Below, in pieces: positions 9,731 through 40,169 of a stretch of 64,000 bases of DNA. The notes under the pieces were generated by a model that worked only from the letters and a program-made list of their open reading frames with translations, had not been told where the DNA came from and did no database searches. Positions within the stretch are counted from its first letter, which is position 1. Every line of letters starts with the position of its first letter. A program made the translations under genes and the position numbers. Origin of the DNA: Victivallis vadensis (GTDB taxonomy: Bacteria > Verrucomicrobiota > Lentisphaeria > Victivallales > Victivallaceae); NCBI RefSeq assembly GCF_003096415.1, contig NZ_QEKH01000021.1, forward strand, positions 26,163-90,162, read 5' to 3'.

Positions 9731-10098
9731 CCTTGCCTCCGGCTGCTCGGGGCGCTTCGCCCAGTTACCGAAGCCGACGTTCGGCACCGACCGGCAAGGT
9801 GCCGGTGCCGGGTACGGTTTCGAGCTTTTTGCTGCGCAAAAATCTCAAAACCGGGGTTATTAATAATGGGTTGTGCAAGGTCTATCGGCAGTACTCGCCT
9901 CCGGGTGCTACCCGGTCGGGTTGCAAGGGCGAAGCGCCTTGCCCGTCGGAGACACTCCGTGGGCGAAACGCCCAGCTCAGGTGCCTGATTGAAAATCAGG
10001 CCGTGAGCCCACGGCGGTCTGCTGCCCGTCAGGGCAAGCAGACCCGCCTGCCGCGAAGGCGGCATGGCTTTCCACACGCGAATCGCCTCTGAAGCCGA
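9731..10098. repeat. dense array of stem-loops with dispersed GCAAGGTGCCG box
   Basis: No gene. At least eight consecutive hairpins can be drawn. Examples are GGGCG/CGCCC near 9750, CCGGCA/TGCCGG at 9792-9806, an imperfect 17-bp stem around TTTTTGC-tgc-GCAAAAA near 9830, CCGGGT-gct-ACCCGG near 9900, TGGGCG-aaa-CGCCCA near 9970, GCCTGAT/ATCAGGC near 9990 and GGTCTGCT/AGCAGACC near 10020. An outer stem CCGTGGG/CCCACGG encloses two of them, giving a branched fold. The box at 9792-9816 recurs at several loci in this window. Confidence 0.6.
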
Positions 10099-32537: not shown

Positions 32538-33775
32538 CACTTCACCCACAGCTTTCCGGCCCGGCCGGCGGCCTCATAGCCGTTGACCATCGCCTCATGC
32601 TGGTCCTCCCCGTTGATCAGCAGGCCGAACCAGCCGCTGGTAACCTCCGTCCAGCGGGCGAACCTCGCGCTGCCGTCCGCGAACGCATAGTTGCGGCCGC
32701 CATGCGGACGCTCCGAGATCAGGTTGCCGTTGCCGATCCGCATCCACGCCACCCACAGCTCCTCCGTGCTCAAGCTGTTGTAGTCCAGCGCGCCGCTCTT
32801 CGCGAAATAGGGACGCATATCCGATGAACCGGTCAGCGCGTACCGGTCGAAGTAAGCCACCAGCCGGTTCGGGGAAGGCCGCAGCCGGTGCAGCGGCACC
32901 GAGGCGACCACGCCGTTGGCCAGATAACCGATTTCGTTGTCCTCGTCCGGCGCGGAAGAACCGCTGTCGCGGGTGATCAGCGCACTGCATTTGAACAAAG
33001 ACTTGTTTTTCGTATAATAATCATACAACGCGCCGACCCACGATTGGCGCCGGCTCGGGTTGGTGAAGCCCTGCTGTACATTATAGGAAGAGTAGTGGTT
33101 CGTCGCATTCTGGCTGCGTCCCGGCATCTGGAACGGAAACTGCCCTTTGAAATCAACCCCATACATCGTCCCGAACTGCGAAATCTGCCGCAGGTTTCCA
33201 AGACAGCTGACCGCCTTGGCCCGGTCGCGCGCCTTGTTCAAGGCAGGCAGCAGCATCGCCGCCAGTATCGCTATGATTGCGATCACAATTAGCAGCTCAA
33301 TAAGAGTGAACAGCCTTACATGGCCGGATGCGGGGGGCGTGTCCGCCTCGTGCCGCGCCCCCTGCGTCCGGCAAGGTGCCGGTGCCGGGTACGGGACGGT
33401 CGACAGGCGGAACGGCGATCGCTCGGCGGGGAAGGAAGATTCGCAATAACGTGACGGTATCTTCCCGCTTTTCTGCGGAAAGATACCGTCACGTTTTTGC
33501 TCCGACTTGCCGCTTGCAGAGCATTGGCGGAAGTGTGAGAGCTTGCCGGAAATATGTGAGAGGTTGGGGAGGTCTGGTACGGGGAGAGACGCGGCGCTGG
33601 TCGCCGCTTTCTCTCCCCCGAACCCCTCTCTTTTGCGCAGAGCGGGAGCGGAAGAGAGAACGTGGGGCCGGGGGAGCGGAACGGGAGTGAAGGGCTGAAG
33701 AACAGATGGGGAACCGTCGTGTATTCGGCAAGCTTGCATTACGGACAGTGCAGTTAAGGTAAAAATGTGTTTCAT
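32537..33775 (-). CDS. prepilin-like protein with ~150-residue leader
   Basis: 412 residues. The prepilin signature [20 protein letters not shown] lies only at about residue 155, and the H-x9-DG-type tail [18 protein letters not shown] is present. The ATG at 33775 has a perfect AGGAGG in its upstream region, and no in-frame ATG, GTG or TTG was seen close to the signature. The leader begins MKHIFTLT, itself like a prepilin start, then runs through repeat DNA that includes the dispersed GCAAGGTGCCG box and a perfect 16-bp hairpin. It looks like a repeat insertion kept in frame. Whether the leader is made and removed is unknown. Overlaps the FG-GAP gene. Confidence 0.75.
33310..33751 (-). repeat. 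repeat-derived DNA inside the prepilin leader
   Basis: Contains the box CCGGCAAGGTGCCGGTGCCG at 33368-33387 on the plus strand. It also has a hairpin whose 16-bp arms at 33448-33463 and 33480-33495 are perfect, extended by CCGC/GCGG. It shares 24-25 nt with the array at 9792. The whole stretch stays open in the prepilin frame. Confidence 0.55.
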
Positions 33776-36419: not shown

Positions 36420-37253
36420 ATGTGGGTAACTGAAGCCATGAACGGATTCGGCATGACCGTCGAGGTCGAAGCCGAACTCTGCCGCCGTCAATCCAAGTTC
36501 CAGAAGATCGAACTCTATCAGACCGGCAAGCTCGGCAAGCTGCTGTTGCTCGACGGCATCATCCAGCTGACCGATTTCGACGAATTCGCCTATCACGAAA
36601 TGCTCGCGAACCTGCCGATGTTCGCCCATGAAAATCCCCGCCGCGCCCTGGTGATCGGCGGCGGCGACGGTGGCATCCTGCGCGAGCTCGGCAAGCACCC
36701 CGGACTCGAAGTGATGGATATCTGCGAAATCGATGAGGAAGTGATCAAGGTCGCCCGCGAATTTCTTCCTGAAATCTCCTGCGGCTATGACGATCCCCGC
36801 GTGAAAATCCATATCGCCGACGGCTCCGAATTCGTGAAGGACAAACCCGGCTATTACGACGTGATCATCGTCGACTCCACCGATCCGGGCGGTCCGGGCA
36901 CCCCGCTTTTCGGCGAGACGTTCTACCGGGACATGAAAAAGGCGCTCCGCCCCGGCGGCGTGATCGCGACCCAGGCGGAATCCCCCTATCTGCTGCCCGA
37001 CATCGTCGCGCGGCTGAACCGGGTTTCCCGCAGCATCTTCCGCTCGGTCGGCTACGCGTCGATCATGGTGCCGACCTATCCGACCGGCATGATCGGCGCC
37101 TGCGTCGCCAGCGACCGCGACGACGTAACCGTGCCGGCCCGCCCGGTACCGCCGGAACTTCAGAAGAGGCTGCGTTACTATAACGCCGCCATCCACCACG
37201 CCGCATTCCAAGTGCCGACCTTCGTCAGCCGCCTGTTCGAACAGAACCGGTGA
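36420..37253 (+). CDS. speE: spermidine synthase
   Basis: 277 residues, typical length. Transfers aminopropyl from decarboxylated S-adenosylmethionine to putrescine. It has the short N-terminal beta-domain (LYQTGKLGKLLLLDGIIQLT), FAYHEMLANLP, the nucleotide loop ALVIGGGDGGILRELGKH and the catalytic VDSTDPGGPG. The ATG at 36420 follows GAGGAGAAGAG. No adenosylmethionine decarboxylase is encoded here. The repeat element starts 30 nt downstream. Confidence 0.93.
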   Translation: MWVTEAMNGFGMTVEVEAELCRRQSKFQKIELYQTGKLGKLLLLDGIIQLTDFDEFAYHEMLANLPMFAHENPRRALVIGGGDGGILRELGKHPGLEVMDICEIDEEVIKVAREFLPEISCGYDDPRVKIHIADGSEFVKDKPGYYDVIIVDSTDPGGPGTPLFGETFYRDMKKALRPGGVIATQAESPYLLPDIVARLNRVSRSIFRSVGYASIMVPTYPTGMIGACVASDRDDVTVPARPVPPELQKRLRYYNAAIHHAAFQVPTFVSRLFEQNR

Positions 37254-37283: not shown

Positions 37284-38089
37284 GGGATTTCGCTCCTTTC
37301 GGAGCGACCAAGGCGCTTCGCCCTTGGAACCCGACCGGCAAGGTGCCGGCGCCGAATACTTCAGAGCCGGGAAAGGCGAAACGCCTTTCCCTCCGGATAG
37401 GGGAGGCTCTACTGTGGACAGGCAGGCGAGTACCTGAGCGGCACACCGCTCCGGTCGGCGGCCGCGTCGGCTTTTTTGCCGACGCCGGGCACTCCCTACG
37501 CCTGCTGCCGCCGGAGGTCACGCGCGGAACCTCCAGATGCTGACCGGGTAATAGACAGATACCCTGATGGAGGCTGATAAGAGTTTATCTGCCGATATAT
37601 GCAAAGCGAGGTCAGGCAACAATGCAGTTACCACCCCACAGGCAAGCACCTTGGAATACGAGCCTTACTGAACCTTGCCTGTATTATGAGGATAGGCAAG
37701 GCGAGAGCAGGCAACAATGCAGTTGCCAACCCACAGGCAAGCATCTTGGAATACGGGCCTTACTGAACCTTGCCTGTATTATGAGGATAGGCGGAGTTCA
37801 GCCTCCATGAGGGTAACTTCACATCATCCGGTCAGCATCTGGAGGTTCCGCGCGTGACCTCCGGCGGCAGCTTACCGCAGGGAGTGCCTGAAGCCCGCAA
37901 AAAAGCGGGCTTTGTGCCGACCGGAGCGGTGTGCCGCTCCTGTACAACCATGCCTGTCTCCATCAGGGCTCCCCCACCCGGAGGGAAAGCCGGAACGGTT
38001 TTCCCGGCTCTAAGTATTCGGCACCGGCACCTTGCCGGTCGGGTTCCAAGGGCGAAGCGCCTTGGTCGCTCCGAAAGGAGCGAAATCCC
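37284..38089. repeat. giant imperfect inverted repeat with tandem hairpins in its loop
   Basis: Arms 37284-37547 and 37828-38089 (about 263 bp each) are reverse complements; the outer 75 bp match with one change. Pairing resumes further in (37558-37578 with 37797-37818). The loop holds two direct 95-bp repeats (37614 and 37709), each with ACAGGCAAG/CTTGCCTGT. Each arm carries its own small hairpins, and these differ compensatorily: GTCGGC/GCCGAC in the left arm is AGCCCGC/GCGGGCT in the right. Both arms contain the dispersed GCAAGGTGCCG box (37335 plus, 38020 minus). The 1,056 bp from 37254 to 38309 encode no recognisable protein. Confidence 0.85.
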
Positions 38090-38188
38090 CTATTCAGGAA
38101 ACTTGTACACGGTGTAATTTCTGGATTTTTAAAATCATCTCAAGGGGCGGGGGATTATCCCCAATCCGGAATAGAAATGGCCTGTGAT

Positions 38189-38222
38189 GCCTCTGGAAAC
38201 AGAGGCGTTTTTCTTTTTCTTC
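38189..38222 (+). terminator. strong Rho-independent terminator with GAAA loop
   Basis: GCCTCTG-GAAA-CAGAGGC (38189-38206) then GTTTTTCTTTTTCTT. It lies over 930 nt beyond the speE stop and 100 nt beyond the inverted repeat, so it either ends a very long speE tail or a transcript of the repeat. Confidence 0.85.
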
Positions 38223-38309: not shown

Positions 38310-40169
38310 ATGAAACGCGCCGTAATATCGATTCTGCTGGGAGTGCTTGTCTCCGCCGCATTCTGCGCCCCGATTCCGGCGGAGCGGGCCGCCGAGGCGC
38401 TGCTGACCGCTTTCTTCACTGGGGATGAAGCCGGAGTCGCGCGGAACAGCTCCCCGCAGGGACTCCGAAAATTTTCCGGCCATGACCGCGAGGAGCTGAT
38501 CCGGGAGGCGGCGCGCTTCGGCGTGTTCCGCGGCATCCTCTCCAGCCAGGAACTCGGGGAGGACCGCGTCGAGGTCCGCTGCCGCTTCTCCGACCACCCG
38601 GTCCGCTTTCTCGTATCGTGCGCTCCCGACGGCAGGGTGAACGGCTTCGCGGTGTTGCCGGACATCGACATTCCCCGCCTGACCAGAGCGCAGATGCTGG
38701 CCGACTTCGATTACCTCACCGCGATGCTGGAGAAAATCTGCCCGCTGTTCACCGTGAACCGAAAAGTCTACGATGTGGACATCCCGGGAACACTGGCCGC
38801 CCATCGCAGCCGGATCACCGGCGACGAATCCCCCGAAGCCTTCTACCGGCTGATCCAGGACGCCCTGCAGGCCTGCCGCGGCAACCACCTCTGGGTCACT
38901 GCCGCCCTGACGGAGCTCCCTCCCGCACTGCACGACTTCCTGTCGGTCTACCGCGGTTTTGTGGACCCGGCGGCGCTTGAAACGACCGCCGCCGTCACCA
39001 TCCGCGAGGGCGGACGCCGTCCCGCCGGTCCCGACCTGGGGCTGATCTACTGCGAAGGGGCGTACTATACGAAATTCGATTTCACGCTGCACGGCGTCAC
39101 TTATCCGCGCGGCATGAAGCTGCTGTCGATCGACGGCATCTCCCCGGAGCTGTTTCTGGCCGAACAAAACGACCATCTGGACAATTTCGACGCCGCCCGG
39201 AAAACCTTTTACGACAGCGGCGAAATCCCTTTCTACACCCGTTCCGGGCGCTGGGGAAAAATGCCGCTGGTGTTCCGGTTCGAACGGCCTGACGGCGCGA
39301 CGGTGACCTTCCCGCTCGCCTCCGGCGACAAACTCATCTGGAAGGGGCCGCTGCGGCAGCCGTGGCATATTCCGAGGCTGGTCGAATACCTGCCGGGGCC
39401 GGAAATCCTGTATATCCGGATTCCGGCGATGCGGGAAGAGGATATTCCATTCTACCGGACACAAATTCTCGAAAAGAGCAGAAATCGGAAAATCCGGGCC
39501 GTCGTGCTCGACGTGCGCAACAATCCCGGCGGCAGCGACGCGGTCTGGAATGAAATCCTCGCGCTGCTGATTCCGGGCCCGTGGAGCTACTCCACCACCT
39601 TCGCGCTGAAGGATTCGCCGGAGATGCGGCGTTTCCTGCAGCAGCACCGCGAATTCTACCGCCGGAACCGCCGCAGCTACGACATGCCCGGCCTGAACGA
39701 GTTCCGGCAGGTCGCGGTCCCCTATCTGGACAACGAAAAATTCCTCGCCGCGACCTTCACCAAGCAGCTGCCCGGCAACCGGGCGGTGCTGCCGGAACGG
39801 GTGCCGGTCTACGTGATCGCGCACAACATCTACTCCTCCGCCGGAAACCTGACGGCGGTTGCGAAGCAGCTCGATTTCGTGACCAGCGTCGGACTGGACA
39901 ACCCGAAAAGCCTCGGCAGGGGGATCGATCCGTTCTTCTTTTCGCTGCCGAATTCCAAACTGGTCGTTTCGGTTGAGCCGGCGCTCGACCTGACCGGTTG
40001 CCGCCGGGCCGCCGACACGCTGCATACCGGGGTTGAACAGAAAGTCGACCTGACGCCGGCGGAGTACGTCGAGTACTGGAACTCCAACCCCGGCCGCAAC
40101 CCGGTCTCCTATCTGCTGCACCGCGATCCTTTCATGCAGAAAATCCTGCAATTGCAGCATAACCGCTGA
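38310..40169 (+). CDS. secreted S41-family serine peptidase
   Basis: 619 residues with signal peptide MKRAVISILLGVLVSAAFCA. The ATG at 38310 follows GGGAGG. The C-terminal half is the S41 (tail-specific/C-terminal processing) fold: ILYIRIPAM, KIRAVVLDVRNNPGGSDAVW, and IYSSAGNL near residue 508 carrying the likely nucleophile Ser. No PDZ domain is evident. The N-terminal part (about 25-140) is a separate domain of unknown role. It has its own promoter and no clear operon partner, so the target is unknown. Confidence 0.8.
   Translation: MKRAVISILLGVLVSAAFCAPIPAERAAEALLTAFFTGDEAGVARNSSPQGLRKFSGHDREELIREAARFGVFRGILSSQELGEDRVEVRCRFSDHPVRFLVSCAPDGRVNGFAVLPDIDIPRLTRAQMLADFDYLTAMLEKICPLFTVNRKVYDVDIPGTLAAHRSRITGDESPEAFYRLIQDALQACRGNHLWVTAALTELPPALHDFLSVYRGFVDPAALETTAAVTIREGGRRPAGPDLGLIYCEGAYYTKFDFTLHGVTYPRGMKLLSIDGISPELFLAEQNDHLDNFDAARKTFYDSGEIPFYTRSGRWGKMPLVFRFERPDGATVTFPLASGDKLIWKGPLRQPWHIPRLVEYLPGPEILYIRIPAMREEDIPFYRTQILEKSRNRKIRAVVLDVRNNPGGSDAVWNEILALLIPGPWSYSTTFALKDSPEMRRFLQQHREFYRRNRRSYDMPGLNEFRQVAVPYLDNEKFLAATFTKQLPGNRAVLPERVPVYVIAHNIYSSAGNLTAVAKQLDFVTSVGLDNPKSLGRGIDPFFFSLPNSKLVVSVEPALDLTGCRRAADTLHTGVEQKVDLTPAEYVEYWNSNPGRNPVSYLLHRDPFMQKILQLQHNR

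Follow-up and report, generated by a model that had tools for sequence, protein, structure and literature searches.

The window analysed here, a stretch of 64,000 nucleotides from Victivallis vadensis, contains a complete giant palindromic repeat of 806 bp (37284–38089) between a spermidine synthase gene (36423–37253, + strand) and an S41 peptidase gene (38310–40169, + strand). An initial annotation had described an imperfect palindrome of about 800 bp, an inverted repeat around two 95-bp direct repeats, and we confirmed both features at these coordinates. It had put the arms at about 263 bp with a near-perfect outer 75 bp; the outermost 78 nt (37284–37361/38012–38089) are indeed 99% complementary, but the arms run slightly longer, to a total length of ~292–294 bp. 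Inverted repeats (I1–I5) and an alignment of arms delimit a left arm (37284–37577, + strand) and a right arm (37798–38089, − strand) that is its inverted copy. Inward of the outermost stretch, complementarity is 81% (37363–37405/37969–38011), 78% (37400–37459/37916–37975), 81% (37470–37500/37876–37906) and 89% (37504–37577/37798–37871).

The left arm is a chain of hairpins in the order A-B-C-E-F-G-H, and the right arm differs from it in the alleles at C, E, F and H. On the left (+ strand), hairpin A (37291–37306) has the allele CGCTCC-TTTC-GGAGCG and hairpin B (37308–37327) the allele CCAAGG..CCTTGG, which is GCAGGG..CCCTGC in other copies. Hairpin C (37334–37350, ACCGGCAAGGTGCCGG) does not vary among the giant copies in this genome; hairpin E (37369–37391) has the allele GGGAAAGGCG..CGCCTTTCCC, with a CCG/CGG allele on the right arm; and hairpin G (37436–37451, GAGCGG-CACA-CCGCTC) is nearly constant by arm alignment and pairing counts. 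The two arm hairpins originally quoted are both present, as alleles of H in sequence and arm alignment (both + strand): GTCGGC-T6-GCCGAC on the left (37466–37483) and AGCCCGC-A6-GCGGGCT on the right (37892–37911). The terminal inverted repeats have constant ends (GGGATTTCG...CGAAATCCC). Each arm starts with A-B-C, a three-hairpin repeat found across the order; in the R1 model the left monomer (37284–37353, + strand) scores 82.6 bits (E 1.4e-19), with covariation, and the right monomer (38020–38089, − strand) 84.4 bits (E 4.7e-20).

Between the arms lies an asymmetric core (37578–37797), most of which is filled by two 95-nt direct repeats on the + strand (core units, 37597–37691 and 37692–37786) that are 92% identical. 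An outer flank module, termed '0' (ATTACACCGTGTACAAGTTTCCTGAAT, read inward), adjoins the element here on the right side only (38092–38118, − strand); in five other copies it stands on both sides. We detected no promoter-like site inside the window's element, and found two terminator-like matches, one inside it (37453–37472) and one outside (38186–38209), with shuffles averaging 1.6. Across the copies there is no evident long open frame; the longest span 95–181 codons and vary in strand and frame. Folded in silico as RNA, as had been suggested at the outset, the whole element reaches −605 kcal/mol, far below shuffles at −325 kcal/mol (sd 4.9), a trivial result that arises because of the palindrome itself.

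A species-specific family and its order-wide monomer

A DNA search of the V. vadensis genome returned, among the matches listed, the same architecture at ~35 unrelated loci. From 39 stretches we delimited 35 elements of 655–961 bp, namely the window's, another 33 in which both ends are present, and L040, without its outer right end. Three more copies are incomplete: two (C51, C64) are truncated by the end of a contig, and C4:193288 is a half element. The window's element is 88–90% identical to the other two-unit copies. Two core units occur in six copies, the window's included, and a single unit in most. Among the variants, the centre of L043 (905 bp) is partly duplicated, while L037, L050 and L056 carry a hairpin-rich cassette of ~130 bp in place of part of hairpin H, in L056 in both arms. 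The large element was absent from 60 relatives, in seven of which the end module alone matches, and none was found in eight congeners. The family of large palindromic repeats is both real and species-specific.

The end pattern GGGATTTCGCYNY occurs 133 times, and its reversed control not once. Besides the giants, the same ends bound palindromes of 30–63 bp, and none among the matches listed falls between 63 and 655 bp. When the short palindromes were modelled as a prefix of the left arm joined to a suffix of the right, 8 of 15 showed junction microhomology of 4–7 bp; 9% of random junctions reach at least 4 bp. They look like scars left by deletion of the centre of larger, collapsed elements, and most of the remaining ones, which do not fit the model, have probably undergone further mutations. 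Read in reverse, an insertion with a duplication of 6–7 bp could give the same junctions.

The outer A-B-C part of the arm (65–70 nt) is also found alone, both in V. vadensis and in other genera. In 14 diverse sequences, 93% of the cells in its three-hairpin structure are paired; covariation scores 0.291 and double changes number 26, against 0.092 and 8.8 after shuffling. The A-B-C covariance model matches 23 of 61 genomes (V. vadensis and 60 relatives), with at least 86 matches in V. vadensis (G000), 84 in G053, 79 in G014, 74 in G058 and 69 in G007; among 145 genomes sampled over the phylum it matches 15, all of Victivallales. Inverted monomer pairs ~200 bp long occur in G058, G053 and G046, and such pairs are found in another family of the order. 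The giant element is an inverted dimer of an elongated A-B-C monomer and an extreme form of this general design. The initial annotation, which saw two inverted copies of a structured element and suggested a search for monomers, was right on this point: the unit stands alone in its own genome and in 22 relatives.

Monomers appear in several other settings. In G058 (C11:19955–20553, L184), inverted monomer pairs recur in tandem every 407 bp, and within the window two inverted monomer matches, weaker than the giant's, lie in a hairpin-rich array after a gene end (9733–9959). Others form part of the reading frame of pseudopilin-like genes (L058, L059, L127, L209, L210, L211, L212, L217), lying in a long N-terminal leader that as a whole is a multicopy cassette; a weak monomer copy of this kind lies at 33337–33386 of the window. 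Elsewhere a solo A-B-C is followed by another hairpin, for example GAAATTGTTTTTCGC..GCGAAAAACAATTTC (L208, L213, L216, L129, and also L061 and L068 from other genera), an arrangement that is perhaps the ancestral monomer. Some solo monomers adjoin terminator-like stems. The congener G005 has a different mosaic repeat with the same B-C hairpins, in places tandem (L060, L067, L070, L190), with hairpin words such as GCGCCCCTTTCGGGGCGCGGTC.

Reassortment and pairing of the arm hairpins

Alignment of the copies and of 69 arms revealed a fixed hairpin order in which most hairpins have two to four alternative, internally paired alleles, such as CCAAGG/CCTTGG or GCAGGG/CCCTGC at B, GGCG/CGCC or ACCG/CGGT at E, and four alleles at H; those of hairpin A vary in length among copies. 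From the column statistics of the arm alignment we derived linkage and arm concordance. Between variable arm sites, r2 is 0.64 at 1–3 nt, 0.07 at 21–40 nt and 0.02 at 41–80 nt. Alleles reassort almost freely among copies and arms, and linkage is gone by ~40 nt. A slight rise of r2 at 81–150 columns would correspond to the two sides of hairpin H, which the 130-bp cassette sets far apart in the alignment. The two arms of an element carry concordant alleles more often than chance predicts at A and B (kappa 0.34–0.62; 0.46–0.62 for B) but not at F or H. Rare variants common to both arms of one element number 12, with 1.6 expected, and an arm's own partner is its nearest arm in only 3 of 34 elements. 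These three observations therefore indicate some exchange within elements and much between them.

Local pairing is retained in 76–100% of arms, depending on the hairpin: A is fully paired in 66 of 69 arms, B in 67 of 69, C in 69 of 69, E in 52 of 68, G in 67 of 68 and H in 61 of 66. Dealing the 3' halves among arms lowered pairing from 0.90 to 0.72 at E and from 0.97 to 0.82 at H. Either selection on structure or template-switch repair can produce such kept pairing (PMC8794818), and the paired alleles could equally reflect selection on RNA or on DNA structure. Template-switch correction of quasipalindromes predicts multi-base compensatory stem changes without intermediates (PMC8794818), the type of change seen here in hairpins B, E and H, although it is a process rather than an element and leaves dispersal unexplained. 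The paired changes had been taken at first as a sign of selection or turnover at the level of single elements. Turnover is borne out by the reassortment of hairpin alleles among ~35 copies; selection is not established, because template-switch correction can make paired changes without it (PMC8794818).

Spread, tolerance and alternative explanations

The giant element is probably a non-coding, non-autonomous selfish repeat of REPIN/BIME/MITE-like character, an inverted dimer of a hairpin-chain monomer that is tolerated at the 3' ends of genes. We infer its dispersal from copy number and restriction to one species. The repeat may have spread as DNA, either with the help of a trans-acting machine or through recombination; alleles would be shuffled among copies by homologous recombination or gene conversion, and template switching inside hairpins during replication would keep each of them paired. 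Slippage between short repeats would collapse the centre of the palindrome to scars of 30–63 bp, and a host benefit, if any, would be secondary, for example as a barrier to convergent transcription.

Great length is perhaps tolerated here, as the hairpin nuclease SbcCD is apparently missing. In V. vadensis no SbcD, a part of that nuclease, scores above the curated cutoff (25 bits versus 77.65), whereas five of eight congeners have one (G001, G002, G003, G005, G008). Since in E. coli SbcCD cuts a long palindrome as it is replicated (PMC3315005), this absence may explain tolerance of such lengths. Loss of SbcD as a general cause of the monomer was rejected, the monomer being present in 2 of 11 genomes with SbcD and 21 of 50 without (p 0.18, not significant). 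As a mover we considered and rejected a RAYT/Y1 transposase, of the family known to mobilise the best-characterised repeats of this kind: V. vadensis has no Y1_Tnp (PF01797) gene in a search whose controls were positive, and Y1 occurs in 13 of 23 genomes with the monomer and 22 of 38 without it. A broader scheme, in which hairpin-chain mobile elements across the order move without a Y1 transposase and evolve by reassorting hairpin cassettes, with giant palindromes arising here through SbcD loss, is possible and we propose it tentatively, with more doubt than belief.

The genes neighbouring each copy were oriented with a purpose-written codon-usage gene finder. Twenty-four of 33 classifiable copies lie between convergent genes, an arrangement shown by 3 of 33 pairs of adjacent genes in the window (Fisher p 2e-7), and the distance from copy to stop codon is often below 30 bp on both sides; the window's copy, between two + strand genes, is an exception. 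This placement, often 0–30 bp from both stops, would suit a functional bidirectional 3'-end element (a terminator, or a barrier to RNase or to transcription collision) that is selected and merely multicopy, as would the retention of hairpins in nearly all arms and the position of L027 within 27-bp inverted flanks resembling the halves of a bidirectional terminator. We nevertheless regard such a function as unlikely. Intrinsic terminators need a U tract after the hairpin, and U tracts appear to be absent after the element's hairpins except for one match at shuffle level; the window's copy has a separate terminator-like site downstream (38186–38209). Certain copies are also found between genes that run in the same direction or even diverge, and convergent gaps are at the same time the least harmful insertion sites. 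Orthologous genes of congeners manage without the element, which is absent downstream of their lysS, serS and speE orthologues.

Somewhat less likely again is a plain MITE, whose long terminal inverted repeats would be acted on in trans by the conventional transposase of an insertion sequence. The copies are dispersed, their terminal inverted repeats have constant ends (GGGATTTCG), and short relatives with internal deletions exist, a feature also of described MITE families (PMC10969869). Against this, the flanks of the copies, read by eye, showed no target-site duplication, a feature that the initial annotation had proposed to look for, and lengths of 655–961 bp exceed the 50–500 bp given for MITEs (PMC10969869). 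The alleles of the terminal hairpin A are of unequal length among copies, and the surroundings of the inverted monomer pairs that were read showed no autonomous partner, Y1_Tnp being the transposase family searched. A plasmid search gave no match, nor did pattern scans of viral and GTDB sequences, which are exact-match only and may omit the species' own genome. At the lysS, serS and speE loci no exact empty site was found in the genus; synteny is lost there. Halves of a further small palindrome, the '0' module (ACGCCGTGTGCAAGTTTCYTGAACC), stand at the two ends of some copies. Inverted target flanks were rejected as a general rule: apart from L027 and L039, they occur only in copies with this module at both ends. 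Within 30 nt of the junction, perfect stems are about as frequent as in shuffles (4 of 53; 2.9 expected).

Across 28 copies, conservation of the one-unit core reaches 91%. This is the main fact for which the reading as a selfish repeat offers no explanation other than recent common origin; a purely selfish spacer does not need a conserved asymmetric core unless the copies are young. Together with the extreme folding energy and the existence of one- and two-unit forms, the conservation might instead point to a multicopy large structured RNA whose asymmetric core is functional and whose arms serve as scaffold, a reading we find improbable. Only 2 of 50–55 core pairs have any double change on either strand, an Rfam search up to E 5 gave no match within the element, which contains no promoter-like site, and no counterpart of the core was found in the relatives searched; the folding energy, as noted above, follows trivially from the palindrome. 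The description of each 95-bp repeat as a hairpin holds only weakly: prediction gives the conserved core a 10-bp stem, with few compensatory changes.

Chance or misassembly, an artefact first raised in the initial annotation and favoured by two copies at contig ends (C51, C64), where palindromes would break assemblies, is excluded: ~35 independent copies, each within unique flanks at its own locus, share one architecture but differ in their combination of alleles. Besides, the arms are not identical and related monomers occur in 23 of 61 genomes.

Some 35 palindromes with arms near 290 bp are kept in a bacterium without SbcD above the curated cutoff. The ~70 homologous arms in one genome constitute a natural experiment in dispersed-repeat recombination, hairpin maintenance by template switching and palindrome collapse, and the mover, if found, would represent a new route for REPIN-like repeats.

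Relation to known repeat systems

ERIC/IRU, RUP, Correia and Rickettsia palindromic elements (RPEs) are single palindromes of roughly 100–150 bp, and RPEs sit in frame inside protein genes. Like the repeat described here they are imperfect palindromes dispersed in one lineage, and the A-B-C monomers resemble RPEs in also occurring in frame within protein genes. They differ in being single and smaller; sequence was compared through the Rfam, plasmid and pattern searches.

REPs measure 20–40 bp (PMC3733652) and REPIN doublets ~70–110 bp (PMC3116915). Like REPINs, the giant element consists of two inverted copies of a hairpin-bearing repeat around a spacer, is scattered through extragenic regions and is accompanied by singlets (PMC3116915). 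Its unit, however, is 65–70 bp or longer, its dimer 655–961 bp with at least six hairpins per arm, and there is no Y1/RAYT gene here and no association with one across 61 genomes. We therefore rejected membership of the REPINs, the inverted hairpin pair being present but RAYT absent and the size wrong. BIMEs are likewise mosaics of palindromic units in alternating orientation, in which hybrid modified units retain the palindrome (PMC2817692). The giant element is a mosaic of alternating orientation and extragenic too, but its units are not REPs linked to RAYTs. In contrast to an array of one or two REP types, it has a fixed order of at least six distinct hairpins, most with alternative alleles, mirrored around a unique core.

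Prokaryotic MITEs such as QMITE and Chunjie are non-coding and multicopy, with terminal inverted repeats and shortened derivatives (PMC10969869), and the giant element likewise has terminal inverted repeats without coding capacity. It is larger, and neither a target-site duplication nor a parental insertion sequence was found. The early suggestion of a MITE-like dimer accordingly fits in behaviour, while no transposase source came to light and, with neither duplication nor parent, the element is not a demonstrated MITE. In behaviour the repeat is closest to REPINs/BIMEs and MITEs.
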